Assembly: GCA_937899365.1 (NCBI GenBank)
Contig: CALBPH010000630.1
Coordinates: forward strand, 1 to 43,605
Reading direction: 5' to 3'
From: an uncultured Leptolyngbya sp.
Lineage (GTDB): Bacteria > Cyanobacteriota > Cyanobacteriia > Phormidesmidales > Phormidesmidaceae
Length of the DNA stretch: 43,605 bases
Below the pieces are notes generated by a model. It ran no database searches. It was not told the DNA's origin and saw nothing but the letters and a program-made list of their open reading frames with translations. The position numbers were made by a program, and so were the translations under genes. Positions 9,077-27,067 of the stretch are shown in pieces (positions within the stretch are counted from its first letter, which is position 1; every line of letters begins with the position of its first letter).

Positions 9077-12000
9077 TTACAAGCGTTCGTCTTGGTCGCC
9101 CCAGTCATCGTCGTTGTAACGTGGCGAATTGTTATTGGGAGGTCGACCAGAATTGCCGGAATATCCTTGAGATGGCGCTTTGGAAACATCGCTGGGTTTA
9201 TCTGCCCAAGGGTCATCATCCACAGGGGTATCGGTATTCCAACGATTGCCGCCAGACGATGGATTAGTTGGATAGCCCCCGCCGGACGGCGCTGGGTAAC
9301 CAGAATTAGGTTGATACCGGCTTGAGTCGGAGTTTCCCCTGGCTGCATTCTCAGGTGCCACATCTGGCTGATAACGACCCGCATCATATCTCGCATCACC
9401 CGCATCATAGGATGGACGAGACGAATTAGCGCCTTGGTTATAACCCCTCTGCTGCTGACTGTAAGAATCTTGGGAATAGCCTGGCTGGCCATCTCGCTGA
9501 GCATAATCCTGGGATGACGAACGGTCACCATAGAACTGATCGGACTGGGAAGATGACGGCCAACTATCAGACGTATTTTGAGACGGCGGGGAAGATGCCC
9601 TGCCTAAGTTATTTCTAGAATCCGTTTCCCAGCCTGGATTGCGAGGGGTGCTATTGTCCCACCTGGATTCACCACCCGATGAGGTGTAATCACCCTGGCC
9701 ATAGCTTTCTTGACGATTAGAGCCCTGGTCATAACGGTTTTGACGATCTTGACCGTAACGGCTCTGGTCATAGGCTTGATTGCCATAGGTCTGGCTATCA
9801 TTTTTGCCGTAGCTGTCTCGACCGTAGCTGTCCCGAGTCGGCTGCCGGTCGTCATAGGCATCTGCACCATGACGACCCTGATCTATCTGGCCATAACCAC
9901 CCTGGTCGTAACCACCCTGGTCGTAACGACCTTGGCCATAACCACCCTGGTCGTAACGACCCGGCTCACTGCGAGGCTGATCATAGGCATCTTGACCATA
10001 GCGGCCCTGACCCTGACCATAGTTATCCCGTGGGGCAGCATCATAGCCAGAACCCTGGTTGCCGTTATAGCCACCGCGTGGAGAATCATACCGCTGATTT
10101 CCAGCCCCGCCTTGCCCAGCTGGCGCCCGGCTCCAGCTATCATCCCAATCATCCCAACCGCTACGGTTGTCACGGCGGCCCGCAGACCAGCTGGGGCTAT
10201 CCCACTGGCTTTGCTGCCCATTCCAGTCATAGTCACGACGATAGTAATCATCGTCATCTTCAAAGGCCTTCTTGATGGTGTCACCAATTTGGCTAAAGAT
10301 ATTGCCATCGTCGCTATCTGCGTCGTACAGATAGGCTTCGCGATTTAGTTCGTACAGTTCATCCTGCAATTCGGACTGAATCATGTCGATCATGCGCTCA
10401 TCTTCACGTTTGAGGGCATCGCGCAAATCTTGAATCAGATTGTCAATCCGGCGTTTGCGATCGCGCGCAAACTGCAAGCCAAAATCAATGGAAACACTCC
10501 GCATGGCCCTTTCCGCCTGAAATGTAAGCGTTTCAGACCGATTTCGTTTTTCAATGCGTTCTCGCTGCCCCCGGTCCACATCGGCAAATTCTTCCGCTTC
10601 CCGCAGCATCTGCTGAACATCGTCTTCAGACAAATTCGACGCTTCTTGCACCGTAATGCTCTGCTCACGGCCGGTGGTTTTATCCATGGCCGACACCTGC
10701 AAAATCCCGTTGGCATCAATATCAAACGACACCTGCACCTGGGGAATACCGCGCGGAGCGGGCGGAATACCCATCAGCTTAAAGCGACCCAGGGATTTAT
10801 TATCCACACCCATTTCCCGTTCGCCCTGGAGCACGTGAACTTCCACAACAGTTTGATTATTTTCAGAGGTGGAAAACACATCGGAGCGCCGCACCGGAAT
10901 AGTGGTGTTGCGGGGAATCACCTTTTTCATCACACCGCCAATGGTCTCTAAGCCTAAGGACAGGGGCGTGACATCCAGCAGCATGATGTCCTTGACTTCC
11001 TCAGTCAAGATACCGGCCTGAATCGCGGCCCCCACACCAACCGCCTCATCGGGGTTTACATTCTGGCTAGGTTCCTTGCTCAGCATGGAGCGCACCAGCT
11101 GCTGCACCATGGGCATCCGACTAGAGCCACCCACCAATACCACCTCATCAATCTGAGATGGGGATAGCCGAGCGTCATTCATCGCCTGCTGTACAGGGGC
11201 ACGCAAGCGACCCAGGAGATCGGCACAGAGGGTTTCAAAGTGCGATCGCGACAGTTTTTTCTCAATATGCTTTGGCCCATCGGCGGTCGCCGTAATAAAC
11301 GGCAGGTTAATCTCCACCGTCGGCAAGCCCGAAAGCTCCACTTTGGCTTTCTCAGCCGCTTCAGTCAGACGTTGCAGAGCTTGGCGATCTCGACGCAGAT
11401 CTACCCCTTCAACCTCTAAAAATTCATCGGCTAGCCAATCAACGATTTTTTTATCAAAATTGACACCTCCTAACTGGGTGTCACCGCTGGTGGATTTAAC
11501 CTCAAACACCCCGTTACGCACATCCAAAATGGACACATCAAAGGTGCCGCCACCCAGGTCAAATACCAAAATAGTTTGGTTGAACTGCTGCTCTAACCCA
11601 TAGGCAAGCGCCGCCGCCGTGGGCTCATTAATAATTCGCTTCACCTCTAAGCCAGCAATGCGTCCGGCATCTCGAGTAGCCTGACGTTGGGCATCGTTGA
11701 AATAGGCAGGTACGGTGATCACAGCACCCGTCACCGGTTGGCCCATGTAGCGACTGGCCTCTTCCGCCAGCTTACGCAGCACCATGGCCGATACTTCTTC
11801 GGGGGCAAAGTCCTTATCTAGACGAGGGCAGCGAATTTTAATATTGCCAGCATCATCCTTACGCACAGTGTAGGGAACGCGCTTTGAGTCGGAGCTCAGC
11901 TCCGTATACTTACGCCCCAGATAGCGTTTGACGTTATAAAACGTGTTTTGGGGATTAAGCACCGCCTGCCGACGGGCCATCTGCCCCACCAAGCGCTCAC

Positions 12001-12136
12001 CCTCTTTGCTAAACGCCACTACAGAAGGGGTGGTACGCATTCCCTCCATATTGGCAATGACCACCGGTTTGCCACCTTCGATGACTGAGACAACTGAGTT
12101 GGTAGTACCGAGGTCAATACCGACGACCTTTCCCAT
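9077..12136 (-). CDS. dnaK: Hsp70 chaperone DnaK (DnaK3-like) with exceptionally long low-complexity C-terminal extension
   Basis: [76 protein letters not shown]; tail after [11 protein letters not shown] rich in Y/G/Q/D/R/S/N. Confidence 0.97.
9888..9963 (-). repeat. Degenerate 15-nt coding tandem repeats ([15 protein letters not shown]) in the DnaK tail
   Basis: ...ccataaccaccctggtcgtaaccaccctggtcgtaacgaccttggccataaccaccctggtcgtaacgac...; encodes [25 protein letters not shown]. Confidence 0.85.
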
Positions 12137-21016: not shown

Positions 21017-22000
21017 CTATGGGTGCAATAGGATTTGGTCATGGTCCACATGGGCCATCCAACCACCTGGAAACGGATCGGTCTGGGTGCGATTGGGTGC
21101 ATCGGCCAACGCTACCAGTTTCTCAATATGCTCAAAGTTGAGCTGCTTGGACAGCGCTACCTGTAACAATCGCCGCGCCACCCGCCGCTGCAACGCTAAC
21201 GGAGCTGCCCTAAAGAGTGGACGATGGATGCACCAACCACCTTCGTACGGTGCGACCACAGCAGCATAGAGTTGCTCGGTCTGGGTGTCTAGGTAGGTGA
21301 CCTCAGCGGTAAAAATTTCTGCCGTCTGGGCCAGGATGGTTTCTACATTAGGGTTAAAGTGCGATCGCAAATAGGGCATCAGCTCCTGACGAATGCGATT
21401 ACGACGATACTGCCAGTCATCATTAGAACTGTCATGCCAGACCGCCAGGTTCAGATCACGACAAAATTGTCCTGTCTCCTGGCGGGTCAGTTGCAAAAGG
21501 GGGCGAGTCACCAAAATATCTGCATGGTCTTGATCCAGAGGCCGCTGCCAGCTCAACGCCTGAATTCCATCGGCTCCGCTACCACGCAATAGGTTGTAAA
21601 GCACTGTCTCAGCTCGATCAGTCGCTGTATGGCCCGTAACTACCCAGTGATAGCCATGGGTCCGGGCTAGGTTTGCAAACACTCGATAACGCCAAGTACG
21701 GGCCGCTGCTTCAGTTTTTTCTAATGCTTGAGCTTTTTCAATAAAGCAAGCAATCTCCCAACCCTCTGCCAGTTTTAAAACATGGGCCGCATTCTCAGCA
21801 GAATCCTCCCGCCAGCCATGATCGCAATGGACTATCGCCAACTGCCAGCCCCACTGCGCCCTGAGGTCAAAAAGCAGCGTAGCCATACACAACGACTCCT
21901 GCCCCCCAGACACAGCCATCAAAATAGCGGTGTCTTTCGGGAGCAGGATCTTTGATTTCAGTAATGTATGGATTCGAGCGTGGGTAGGGGTCCAAGGCAT
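21017..22000 (-). CDS. tilS: tRNA(Ile)-lysidine synthetase
   Basis: PP-loop variant VSGGQESLCM, VHCDHGWREDSAENA, VTGHTATDRAETVLYNLLRGSGADG, RNRIRQELMPYL. Confidence 0.94.
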   Translation of the reverse strand: MPWTPTHARIHTLLKSKILLPKDTAILMAVSGGQESLCMATLLFDLRAQWGWQLAIVHCDHGWREDSAENAAHVLKLAEGWEIACFIEKAQALEKTEAAARTWRYRVFANLARTHGYHWVVTGHTATDRAETVLYNLLRGSGADGIQALSWQRPLDQDHADILVTRPLLQLTRQETGQFCRDLNLAVWHDSSNDDWQYRRNRIRQELMPYLRSHFNPNVETILAQTAEIFTAEVTYLDTQTEQLYAAVVAPYEGGWCIHRPLFRAAPLALQRRVARRLLQVALSKQLNFEHIEKLVALADAPNRTQTDPFPGGWMAHVDHDQILLHP

Positions 22001-22025: not shown

Positions 22026-23984
22026 CTACTTACCCATATCCTTTAGATCGTCAGCAACATCAGATGCCTTGTCTTTGAGGTTACCAGCTTGATTGCCAAC
22101 CTGATTCACACCGCTGCGCACACGCTGCCAGAGGGGTTGAGACCCTTCTTTAGCATCGTTAGCCACATTTTTTACAGTATTACTAGCAGCATCAGTCATA
22201 CCACTGAGCTTATCGGTGGCAGCACCTGCACCCCCTTGAAGCGTATTACCTACACTGTCAAAACCACCGTTGACACCATCGCCAAGACTACTGATACCAC
22301 CTTGTACGGCATTACCAGCACTTCCTAAGCCACCTTTGATGCCATCCACACCTTGCTGAGCAGCACCTTGCACGTTGTCCAAACTGCCTTGAGCGACATC
22401 ACCAACCTTGCCCAGGCCGCCTTTAGCAGCATCACCCATATGGCCTAAACCATCTTGAATGCTGCCAAAACCGCCTTTGGCAGCATCACTGACATTACCA
22501 AGACCGGCTTTCCCGCCACCTAAGCCACCTTTGGCAGCATCGCCGACATTATCAAGACCTCCCTTGAGATGATCTAGACCATCTTTAGCGGTAGCACCAA
22601 CATTGCCCAGGCCATCCTTAGCCACATTGCCACCCTGCTTAGCCGCAGCCCAAGCAGTGCCGCCAGCCGCTACAGCACCGGCTGCTGTGGCTGTTCCAAC
22701 ATTACCGACACTAGATAGAGCGCCATCGGTAGTTACAGATGCCATGTTGGCATCTTTGCGACGACGAGAGCCCCAAGCCACCAGACCTAAGCAAGCGGCC
22801 GGTACAACCATCAGCCACCAAAGATTGATTCGAGTTTGTGATTTAGGGTTGCGATCGCTAACCGGTTGTTCTGCCGCTGCCGTCGCCTGATTAGCAGCAT
22901 TACCAGCCACATCAGCGGCGCCCTCAATCGCATCACCAGCAACGTCAGCGGCACCTTCAACAGCCACACCAGCCGCATCAGTCGCGCCCTCCAGAGCATT
23001 ACCAGCAACGCCAGCGGCACTCTGAACAGCTCCACCAGCGGCATCGGTCACGCCCTCAAGGGCATTACCAGCAACGTCAGCAGCACCTTTTACCGTATTA
23101 CCAGCCGCACTGACTACACCAGCCAAAGGATTCACGGACGTCAGAGCAGATTGACCCGGTGCACCCGTCGCATAGCCCAAAAATGCCGCAACAGCCGGAG
23201 ACGGTTCGCCACTATAAATCAACGAAAAAGGCTGGGAGAAAGGATAGCGGGCATCGCTGGGCAATGTCTTGTGCATCGACAATGTACGCACGCCAGCCAG
23301 ATCATTTACTTGATCAACCAGGACATAGCCAATCCCATCGGTGCCAAGACCCTTAGCAATATCGGCTGCACTATCGGTCTCTAGTTGAGATGCAGTTTCG
23401 CCAGTAGCAAACTCAGCCGCCTTAAACACAGGGTAAGCGGCCAAGGCTAGGCGGGTCTCGCTGGTATCAGGCCGATCTATTAAACGAATAGGCGTATTGG
23501 GTCCACCAACTTCAGACCAATTCGTGATCTCACCCCGAAAAATTTTGGCAAACTGCTCACTGCTTAAACCACCAGTAAACGGGTTATCGGCACCCACAAT
23601 GACAGCAATTTTAATGCGCTGAACATCCACAGCGGCCAGACCTTGCTCAGTTTCAGCTGTGGTCAAAGGACGACTTATGGCAGCCAGGTCAGCATCACCA
23701 ACCAATAACGATTGGATAGCTCGATCGGCACCCATCGCATCGACGTTCACCTCAGCCCCGTCAAATTTACCCTCAAAACTTGTTTTGAGCGCCTCACTAA
23801 TCAGAGTCATGGCATCGGAACCACTGCTTACCAAAAGTTTCGTATCGCTAGACACGGTAATGGGGGCATCAAAAGTAGCGGGGGCAGCAATGGCCGTAAA
23901 ACTAAAAAGAGACGAGTAGGGCGCAACAACTGCCAACAACGCAACTGTCGCCGCCAGGGAAACGGTAGAGCGGGGCCTAAACAT
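22026..23984 (-). CDS. PstS-like substrate-binding protein with membrane anchor and amphipathic repeat regions on both sides of the TM helix
   Basis: Signal peptide; PBP-like DAMTLISEALKTSFEGKF...DADLAAISRPLTTAE...IAVIVGADNPFTGGLSSEQFAKIFRGEITNWSEVGG; 7x 11-mers; TM NLWWLMVVPAACLGLVAWGSRRRKD; glycine/alanine/lysine repeat C-terminus. Confidence 0.85.
   Translation of the reverse strand: MFRPRSTVSLAATVALLAVVAPYSSLFSFTAIAAPATFDAPITVSSDTKLLVSSGSDAMTLISEALKTSFEGKFDGAEVNVDAMGADRAIQSLLVGDADLAAISRPLTTAETEQGLAAVDVQRIKIAVIVGADNPFTGGLSSEQFAKIFRGEITNWSEVGGPNTPIRLIDRPDTSETRLALAAYPVFKAAEFATGETASQLETDSAADIAKGLGTDGIGYVLVDQVNDLAGVRTLSMHKTLPSDARYPFSQPFSLIYSGEPSPAVAAFLGYATGAPGQSALTSVNPLAGVVSAAGNTVKGAADVAGNALEGVTDAAGGAVQSAAGVAGNALEGATDAAGVAVEGAADVAGDAIEGAADVAGNAANQATAAAEQPVSDRNPKSQTRINLWWLMVVPAACLGLVAWGSRRRKDANMASVTTDGALSSVGNVGTATAAGAVAAGGTAWAAAKQGGNVAKDGLGNVGATAKDGLDHLKGGLDNVGDAAKGGLGGGKAGLGNVSDAAKGGFGSIQDGLGHMGDAAKGGLGKVGDVAQGSLDNVQGAAQQGVDGIKGGLGSAGNAVQGGISSLGDGVNGGFDSVGNTLQGGAGAATDKLSGMTDAASNTVKNVANDAKEGSQPLWQRVRSGVNQVGNQAGNLKDKASDVADDLKDMGK
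22200..22613 (-). repeat. Mixed 33-nt/21-nt coding repeats (11-aa and 7-aa units) in the predicted cytoplasmic tail
   Basis: GLGNVGATAKD/GLDHLKG/GLDNVGDAAKG/GLGGGKA/GLGNVSDAAKG/GFGSIQD/GLGHMGDAAKG/GLGKVGDVAQG/SLDNVQGAAQQ/GVDGIKG/GLGSAGNAVQG/GISSLGDGVNG/GFDSVGNTLQG/GAGAATDKLSG. Confidence 0.93.
22872..23102 (-). repeat. Seven tandem 33-nt coding repeats (11-aa units)
   Basis: GNTVKGAADVA/GNALEGVTDAA/GGAVQSAAGVA/GNALEGATDAA/GVAVEGAADVA/GDAIEGAADVA/GNAANQATAAA. Confidence 0.95.
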
Positions 23985-24575: not shown

Positions 24576-25610
24576 ATGGATAACGGCACAGGTAATAAAA
24601 CGACAGCTCCCAAGACCGCCAGTGGCGATTTCAGCTCCGATGAGCACACCATTAAAGGCTCAGAGCCGCCTTCAATGGCCGTTTCTGGTGAGGGTAGCCA
24701 GGCTGAGTCAGATGGCAACGCTGCTGCAGAGTCTCGTGCGGCTCTATCGGCACGCTTAAAAACATCAAAGAATGTAGAGCTATACGTATTTGAGTCCGAT
24801 GCCAATAGCGATCAACAAACGTCGCCCCTTGCAGATGTTGCCTCCCTCGAAATAGAGGTAGACCAGGAACAGGACGTCTCTAACGTCTCTAAACAGCAGC
24901 TGACATTCAAGAGTGAGCAGGGTCGGCTGTTACTGATACTGCCCCCGGCTGCTGAAAAAAGTTTTACCCCCGTTGAGTGGGAAGACCTGTGCCATCAGCT
25001 AACATTGCGGCTAAATTCTGGCGATCGGTTTTTAGAGCCCAACACAACGGTGCATTTAATTGCTCGGGATCGTCTGCTGGATAGTCGTCAACTCCAAGAA
25101 ATCGATCAGCTGCTGCAAACGGCTAAGCTGCGCATGAAGCGAATTTATACCCAGCGCCGACAGACCGCTGTGGCGGCCACAACGGCTGGATATTCGGTAG
25201 AGCAGCAAACTAAGTTAGAGCATCTGACCGGTGCATCTGACCAGGGGAAGGCGCTAGAAACACCCCTTTATGTGCAAATGACCGTACGCTCTGGCACAGA
25301 AATTCGCCATCCTGGTTCAATTGTGGTTTTAGGCGATGTGAATCCGGGTGGAGCCTTGATCGCGGCTGGGGATATTTTTGTTTGGGGTCGCCTGCGGGGG
25401 GTGGCCCATGCTGGCTCCGAGGGCAATGCCGCCTGCCGCATTATGGCCCTACATATGCAACCCACCCAGCTGCGTATCGCTGATCAGGTAGCTCGGGCAC
25501 CCGAGAACCCCCCCACACAGTATCAGCCGGAAGTGGCCTATGTGACTCAAGGCAGCATTCGAATTGCGATCGCATCTGAGTTTGCCCAAATCCACCTCAA
25601 CGCCCCGTAA
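24576..25610 (+). CDS. minC: Septum site-determining protein MinC with long disordered N-terminal region
   Basis: C-terminal beta-helix domain VRSGTEIRHPGSIVVLGDVNPGGALIAAGDIFVWGRLRGVAHAGSEGNAACRIMALHMQPTQLRIAD; upstream of minD. Confidence 0.95.
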   Translation: MDNGTGNKTTAPKTASGDFSSDEHTIKGSEPPSMAVSGEGSQAESDGNAAAESRAALSARLKTSKNVELYVFESDANSDQQTSPLADVASLEIEVDQEQDVSNVSKQQLTFKSEQGRLLLILPPAAEKSFTPVEWEDLCHQLTLRLNSGDRFLEPNTTVHLIARDRLLDSRQLQEIDQLLQTAKLRMKRIYTQRRQTAVAATTAGYSVEQQTKLEHLTGASDQGKALETPLYVQMTVRSGTEIRHPGSIVVLGDVNPGGALIAAGDIFVWGRLRGVAHAGSEGNAACRIMALHMQPTQLRIADQVARAPENPPTQYQPEVAYVTQGSIRIAIASEFAQIHLNAP

Positions 25611-25764
25611 TCACCGTTTGCCCAAAGGCACCGTTCTGGCCTATTCGCAAGCCTTCCCTAGAAATTCCCCAGGGAAATCCCAAAAAATTTGCCATAACGT
25701 GAGACTATTGCCCTACTTGAGCCCTGTGCCCTACCAACAACACCCTCAATCGCCCGTTTAATCC

Positions 25765-26565
25765 ATGGCTATGAACCGTATTATCGTCGTTACCTCCGGC
25801 AAGGGAGGCGTTGGGAAAACCACCTGCACCGCTAACCTGGGGATGGCCCTAGCCAAGGCAGGGAAACGCGTCGCCGTCATTGATGCTGACTTTGGATTAC
25901 GCAATTTAGACCTGCTTCTGGGTTTAGAAAACCGCATTGTCTACACAGCGCTAGATGTTTTAGCAGGGGAGTGTCGACTCGATCAGGCCCTGGTAAAAGA
26001 CAAGCGCCAACCCAACTTGGCTCTGTTACCTGCGGCTCAAAACCGCTCTAAGGAGTCGATTACACCAGAACAGATGAAAAAGCTGGTCAGAGCCCTGACC
26101 AAAGCCTATAACTTTGTCTTAATCGATAGCCCAGCAGGGATTGAAATGGGCTTTCGCAACGCCATTGTGGCGGCCCGCGAAGCCATTATTGTCACCACTC
26201 CCGAAATTTCTGCCGTCCGGGATGCTGACCGCGTTATTGGCCTATTAGAAGCCAATGATATTAAAGCCATGCGACTGATTATTAATCGTCTGAAGCCCGC
26301 CATGGTAGAAGCGCAACAGATGATGTCAGTCAAAGATGTGCAGGACATCTTAGCGGTTCCACTGCTAGGGGTCATTCCCGATGATGAACAGGTGGTAGTC
26401 TCCACCAATAATGGAGAACCCTTAATCCTAGATAAGGAACTTTCTAAAGCGGGTACCGCCGTATCTAATATTGCGCGTCGCTTGCAGGGGGAAAAGGTGC
26501 CGCTGATGGATTTGAGTGTGCCAAAAGATAGCTTTTTTAAGAAACTACGTCAGTTATTTAATTAG
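25765..26565 (+). CDS. minD: Septum site-determining ATPase MinD
   Basis: RIIVVTSGKGGVGKTTCTANLGMALAKAGKRVAVIDADFGLRNLDLLLGLENRIVYT; C-terminal amphipathic membrane-targeting end FFKKLRQLFN. Confidence 0.98.
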   Translation: MAMNRIIVVTSGKGGVGKTTCTANLGMALAKAGKRVAVIDADFGLRNLDLLLGLENRIVYTALDVLAGECRLDQALVKDKRQPNLALLPAAQNRSKESITPEQMKKLVRALTKAYNFVLIDSPAGIEMGFRNAIVAAREAIIVTTPEISAVRDADRVIGLLEANDIKAMRLIINRLKPAMVEAQQMMSVKDVQDILAVPLLGVIPDDEQVVVSTNNGEPLILDKELSKAGTAVSNIARRLQGEKVPLMDLSVPKDSFFKKLRQLFN

Positions 26566-26671
26566 GGTTACCGAGACGGTCGATAGGCGGCGACCGTTAT
26601 ATCGTTGCTGATTCATAAGGTGATCTGCAACGCCACTATTTTTAATGCTCCTCGCCTTATCGGAAATGACC

Positions 26672-27067
26672 ATGATTAGTGAATTATTTGAGAGACTCTT
26701 TGGCTCCCGTGAACCGGTAAGTCGTGATACGGCTAAGCAGCGGTTACAGTTTGTCTTAGCCCATGACCGCTCCGACATTTCACCCCAAAACTTAGAAAAG
26801 CTACGTCAAGAAATTTTGGAGGTAGTGTCGCGTTATGTTGAGCTCGACTTCGACAGCCTTGAATTTTCCCTCGAATCAGACAATCGCATGACCGCGCTGA
26901 TGGCCAATTTACCCATTCGGCGGGTGCGGTCCAATCCGTTAGAACCAGATAGCCCCGTGGTGGAAACAGAACAGGAACCACGGCTGGAGATAGAAGATGG
27001 TTCCATTGAAGGTCTAGAGGAAGTCGTTGAAGAAGCCTCGGAGACCGCGGATATTCCGGCAGAGTAA
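26672..27067 (+). CDS. minE: Cell division topological specificity factor MinE with acidic C-terminal extension (start MISELFERLFG; ORF opens at 26645)
   Basis: SRDTAKQRLQFVLAHDRSDISPQNLEKLRQEILEVVSRYVELDFDSLEFSLESDNRMTALMANLPIRRV. Confidence 0.96.
   Translation: MISELFERLFGSREPVSRDTAKQRLQFVLAHDRSDISPQNLEKLRQEILEVVSRYVELDFDSLEFSLESDNRMTALMANLPIRRVRSNPLEPDSPVVETEQEPRLEIEDGSIEGLEEVVEEASETADIPAE

Follow-up and report, generated by a model that had tools for sequence, protein, structure and literature searches.

A 652-aa protein encoded on the minus strand of the window (the whole analysed stretch of DNA, 43,605 nucleotides long) combines a signal peptide, a PBP domain of PstS-type fold and a single TM helix with two amphipathic repeat tracts, one on either side of that helix, and the same layout recurs in a second cyanobacterial family. 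The parts of this protein are ordinary; their assembly is both unusual and recurrent. The best explanation, to which we assign a probability of about 0.4 on sequence grounds, is that it would serve as a membrane-anchored tether to lipid surfaces. The protein and its neighborhood are laid out as follows:

22026-23984, minus strand: the whole ORF, in the order signal peptide, PBP, 11-mer tract, TM helix, RRRK, 11/7-mer tract, amphipathic tail (three same-genus orthologues)
23886-23984, minus strand: predicted signal peptide, residues 1-~33 (n-region RPR, hydrophobic core, AIAA; hydropathy peak)
23166-23849, minus strand: PBP domain, residues 46-273, PstS-type fold with altered anion loop S-E-T (PF12849, E=3e-34)
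22872-23102, minus strand: outer tract of seven 11-mers, residues 295-371, net charge -9 (periodicity, moment, wheel)
22767-22826, minus strand: single TM helix, residues ~387-406 (hydropathy; low-confidence AF2 helix 389-412; conserved residues)
22755-22766, minus strand: RRRK, residues 407-410, the positive-inside flank (sequence)
22134-22640, minus strand: inner tract of 11/7(18/29)-residue amphipathic repeats, residues ~449-617 (moment and wheel)
22032-22133, minus strand: conserved C-terminal amphipathic tail, residues 618-651 (homologue alignment; moment 0.47-0.50)
21017-22000, minus strand: tilS, the next downstream gene after a 25-bp gap, a conserved neighbor (PF01171, E=1e-43; synteny)
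24576-27067, plus strand: the divergent neighbors minC (24576-25610) and minD (25765-26565) (profile matches; synteny)
within 24576-27067, plus strand: a small ORF after minD, presumed to be minE (gene order only)

The ATG of the 652-aa ORF is preceded by GAGG, 9 nt upstream. The original prediction had read in it a signal peptide, a PBP domain, seven exact 11-mers, a TM helix, RRRK and inner repeats, all of which were borne out, and the topology that it drew from the signal peptide, TM helix and positive-inside flank is strengthened by the homologues: their alignment reveals conserved residues in the TM helix (W389, W390, P395, L401 and W404) and the retention of basic residues after it in most of them. 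The outer tract is Ala-rich and acidic, while the inner tract comprises 150-170 residues of Gly/Ala/Asp/Lys-type 11- and 7-residue units. The proposed AlphaFold check upheld one part of the architecture and left the other without structural support: in the full-length AF2 model the PBP alone is well modelled (pLDDT mostly 70-94), the TM segment and tail residues 618-651 are low-confidence helices, and the tracts have no modelled structure in this monomer prediction from a shallow alignment of 11 rows (pLDDT <50 in the inner tract).

The 11-residue amphipathic periodicity claimed for the repeats is well supported by spectral analysis. Autocorrelation of the outer tract gives z=10 at period 22 and z=7 at period 11, and that of the inner tract recovers periods 18, 11 and 29 (z=7.6, 6.2 and 5.1, respectively). 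Hydrophobic moments (Fauchere-Pliska scale, taken across each whole tract) are 0.29 at 98.4 degrees for the outer and 0.36-0.37 at ~99.2 degrees for the inner tract, in both cases above every shuffle, and across the hydrophobicity spectrum from 10 to 180 degrees the largest peaks lie at 98.5 degrees (outer) and 99.0 degrees (inner). These angles are those of the 3-11 helix and its 29-residue/8-turn mixture. On the helical wheel the inner tract of the window protein displays an L/V/I face with Lys at ~+110 and Asp at ~180 degrees. The angle of 98-99 degrees and the weak hydrophobicity place the tracts, from sequence alone, in the physical class of perilipin-like 3-11 amphipathic helices. The inner tracts have a hydrophobic fraction of.33-.36, an aromatic fraction of 0-.013, a charged fraction of.14-.18 and Pro at <=.005, with Gly at 27-36% and Thr at 1-3%.

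Hendecad coiled coils also have 3/11 and 5/18 periodicities. The main rival explanation is hence that the 11- and 18-residue repeats pack into straight or right-handed coiled coils or into Gly zippers, with a periplasmic stalk made by the outer tract and a self-assembling cytosolic scaffold by the inner one. Both observed periodicities would fit hendecads and the Ala-rich outer tract resembles close-packed helices, but the very high Gly content of the inner tract and the lack of a confident helix in the AF2 monomer speak against it, and we consider it unlikely. A membrane-anchored, LEA-group-3-like protectant against desiccation or freezing would likewise account for amphipathic, probably disordered 11-mer repeats. 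Group 3 LEA proteins are highly charged, whereas charged residues make up just 14-18% of the inner tracts, and the LEA group 3 profile (PF02987, LEA_4) gave no match at E<=1; the likeness to this group drawn in the original prediction is thus disfavored and a protectant role very improbable. YtxH and GvpQ, also tried in the profile search, gave no match or fell below cut-off.

The same-genus proteins preserve these properties. In all four of them, the window protein included, the inner tract (173-273 residues under one way of delimiting it) reaches 0.34-0.36 in moment at 99.2-99.4 degrees, and the outer tract 0.29-0.33 at 98.4-99.4 degrees. Orthologues carry DNA-level arrays with units of 33, 54, 66, 87, 120 and 174 bp, equivalent to 11, 18, 22, 29, 40 and 58 residues; all of these lie near whole turns at 99.3 degrees, so that the helical phase is kept, although they are not independent tests because all combine 11 and 18. 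In the window, TRF finds a 33/66-bp array in the outer tract and detected none in the inner tract, so the periodicity of the latter is not simply a product of recent DNA duplication. A comparison of the window inner tract with that of G001 yields a dN/dS of about 0.12, with dS near saturation. Three proteins of g13, the sister genus, lack 3-11 amphipathicity in the outer segment, which is a linker there, and show a weak or absent signal in the inner one; both positions hold non-repetitive, S/N/D/G-rich linkers, indicating that the tracts are dispensable to the locus. These linkers, together with the variable repeat number and the arrays in orthologues, would be expected if the tracts were flexible low-complexity spacers grown by replication slippage, with no specific function of their own, and only the TM helix and tail were functional. 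However, slippage alone would not hold one helical phase and one Lys/Asp/Asn wheel in both lineages along stretches of 200-340 residues, nor does it readily account for the array-free periodicity of the window inner tract. Its dN/dS, with dS near saturation, also speaks against this explanation, which appears quite unlikely.

The second lineage emerged from a scan of the retrieved ORFs for coherent amphipathicity over 130 residues (high-moment ORFs resembling antisense readings of the same repeats were discarded), which recovered, besides the orthologues, a protein of the PBP-TM type in G045, a genome of another family (f11). Its order is identical (PBP, outer tract, TM helix, inner tract, tail), and its relatives in G088 and G091 show the same layout. 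The architecture, for which a search across cyanobacteria had been proposed, is thus present in three genomes of a second family. Across seven proteins of the two families the amphipathicity of the inner tract is coherent at 98.8-99.4 degrees over 195-338 residues, with moments never reached by shuffles, and all seven share one wheel: counted from the inner tract's hydrophobic centre, Lys lies at +100 to +136, Asp at ~180 and Asn at about -150 degrees. The outer tracts are acidic in 7/7, that of G088 being marginal in amphipathicity (moment 0.250 versus a shuffle maximum of 0.245). The AU test rejects a single PBP clade uniting the window clade and the G045 protein (p=1.2e-4, an indicative value because the group was named after the proteins had been seen). 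The layout accordingly arose twice or moved by recombination; on the sequence evidence, independent origin and tract transfer by recombination would both fit. Its recurrence in two unrelated branches suggests that the predicted membrane-surface role may be real.

The PBP form is present in four of the eight species genomes of the genus, this one included, and in six of seven genomes of a second genus belonging to its family. This locus clade is monophyletic in the PBP tree (support 100/99), and in 9/10 of its members the gene lies between tilS and minC, the contig of the tenth (G001) ending beyond the gene. Such constant company might point to an accessory of Min-dependent cell division that acts at the membrane through its amphipathic tail. 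Yet tilS and minC are also adjacent in genomes that lack the gene, so that position alone is weak evidence for function and the linkage may be mere inheritance, and in G045 of family f11 the protein of identical architecture and minC are encoded on different contigs; we regard a Min role as extremely unlikely. At the same locus in G035 (L087:773-1912) the whole PBP is missing in frame between the signal peptide and the linker, while the signal peptide, linker, TM helix and tail are retained. The tail has a dN of 0.09 against a dS of 1.26 (G035 vs G087) and, by this sequence comparison, is under constraint. G011 has a shorter ORF with a signal peptide and TM helix at the same locus, possibly a derivative of the PBP-TM gene. 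Elsewhere in the window, positions 9077-12136 (minus strand) encode a 1019-aa DnaK-like protein whose C-terminal tail of ~400 residues is rich in G/Y/Q/S/D and apparently disordered.

The PBP region gave the expected match in a domain search (PF12849, PBP_like_2, residues 46-273; 119 bits versus a cut-off of 27), and its PstS-type fold matches phosphate-binding proteins in a fold search whose TM-scores are lowered by the disordered parts of the full-length model. The cut-off of the PstS subfamily profile TIGR02136 was not reached (95.0 bits versus 206.6). In the anion loop S-G-T has become S-E-T; S-[D/E]-T replaces S-G-T in nearly all of the ~80 PBP-TM family members sampled, whereas S-G-T is intact in Sll0540 and in the canonical PstS structures used for comparison. 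The window protein has also lost the Thr of the first motif and the serine of G-[S/T], while retaining the Arg of the S-R motif and the Arg/Ser/Thr of the second loop. As originally stated, no pst permease or ATPase (PstC/A/B) occurs among the window ORFs; a canonical pstS/pstC set resides elsewhere in the genome (contig C356). A Pho box search found nothing above shuffles, the pstS control being likewise weak. A receptor that binds phosphate through its PBP and signals across the membrane would be in keeping with the fold and the retained loop residues, but the altered loop throughout the family and the loss of the PBP in G035 leave the solute sensing proposed earlier unsupported; we dropped it and give such a receptor only a slim chance. 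The 'phosphate-binding' annotation is probably wrong in the PBP-TM-X family.

Sequence comparisons assign the window protein to this large, undescribed cyanobacterial PBP-TM-X family, in which the X partners include DUF4912, WD40 with TPR, TPR, DUF2382, acetyl-CoA synthetase and glycogen phosphorylase. A literature search covering DUF4912, Sll0540/9L8J, PBP-WD40 fusions and bacterial perilipin-like repeats returned no description of it. In G045 (L046:9230-13087) a PBP-TM module is fused in frame to a complete acetyl-CoA synthetase (ACAS_N, AMP-binding, AMP-binding_C); the junction is found in three genomes of family f11 (G045, G091 at L176 and G089 at L170), and in G045 and G091 the fusion comes right after the PBP-TM gene that bears the tracts. 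The single-contig genome G058 (L144:5265-9743) joins PBP-TM-TPR to a full-length glycogen phosphorylase (PF00343, E=5e-261). The proteins at L151:4783-9177, L139:2602-6318 and L143:2782-6669 run PBP, WD40 propeller repeats, TM helix and then TPR, with DUF4912 additionally in L139 and L151; from this order their beta-propellers apparently lie on the exported side. Finally, in the genome of the window itself, one ORF (L036:10140-12086, contig C695) combines a protein kinase domain (PF00069) with a PF12849 PBP domain after it.

The lipid-surface tether would thus be a single-pass anchor protein seated in the plasma membrane, with an exported PstS-fold ectodomain that lacks the standard phosphate loop and a neighboring transporter and that would stand on a short, acidic, Ala-rich stalk. 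In the cytosol, the tail would be a weakly amphipathic 3-11-helix tract of the perilipin-4 class, probably unfolded in solution, that would fold against lipid, be it the inner leaflet, a thylakoid or a droplet. Its hold would come from many weak contacts, with help from the short amphipathic helix conserved at the C-terminus, and the protein may act as a tether or coat whose occupancy could depend on the ectodomain. In favor of the tether are the shuffle-beating coherence, the one wheel in seven proteins, the Plin4-like composition, the helical phase preserved by the DNA repeat units of orthologues, the separate PBP clades and the survival of the TM helix and tail after PBP loss in G035. Against it stand the 27-36% Gly of the inner tract, unfavorable for a helix, the weak or non-amphipathic tracts of g13 and the lack of significant Pfam matches to perilipin (PF03036, E=0.26, 10.7 bits versus a cut-off of 33) or apolipoprotein (PF01442, E=0.07, 13.3 bits versus 90). 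The helix of perilipin 4 is unfolded in solution until it meets lipid (PMC5889406), and low AF2 confidence thus counts neither against nor for the tether. A bolder version, which we hold to be doubtful, would make the protein a membrane-spanning bacterial equivalent of perilipin. Its PBP-TM scaffold would have gained giant 3-11 amphipathic tails at least twice in cyanobacteria, always with a single charge wheel, and would tether or coat a lipid surface under ectodomain control, within a larger family in which enzymes and scaffolds are plugged onto a common receptor-like anchor. Through their recurrence and conserved wheel, the tracts offer a purely sequence-based way into membrane-surface coats of cyanobacteria, and they expose the widespread, unstudied PBP-TM-X family.

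To our knowledge no described bacterial protein has perilipin-like tracts flanking a TM helix on both sides, and none appeared in the papers searched. Among known systems, the PstS/SphX-type phosphate-binding protein Sll0540 of Synechocystis PCC 6803 is the best sequence and fold match to the PBP domain that it shares with the window protein (PDB 9l8j; 43% identity, E=3e-53); its structure shows a lone PBP domain of ~240 aa, and it retains S-G-T, unlike the PBP-TM family with S-[D/E]-T. The PBP-TM-DUF4912/WD40/TPR proteins (e.g. the paralogue L035:3990-7016) have the same scaffold of signal peptide, PBP, linker and TM helix and the altered phosphate loop, but carry globular modules where the window protein has amphipathic tracts. 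LEA group 3 proteins have 11-residue amphipathic repeats in common with it, from which its tracts differ in low charge, high Gly and the lack of a profile match. The amphipathic region of human perilipin 4, a helix that coats fat droplets in animals, differs from the window protein, whose tracts are joined to a TM helix and PBP without detectable homology to it, and whose inner tract has 27-36% Gly, 1-3% Thr and mixed 11/18/29 units versus 33-mers. Like the tracts, this region comprises hundreds of residues of 11-mer repeats with the periodicity of a 3-11 helix, and like the inner tract it is ~35% hydrophobic, almost devoid of aromatic residues and ~15% charged (Hdr.35, aromatic.002, charged.15, moment.257; PMC5889406), the comparison of moments being approximate since the published values are means over consecutive helices and ours cover whole tracts.
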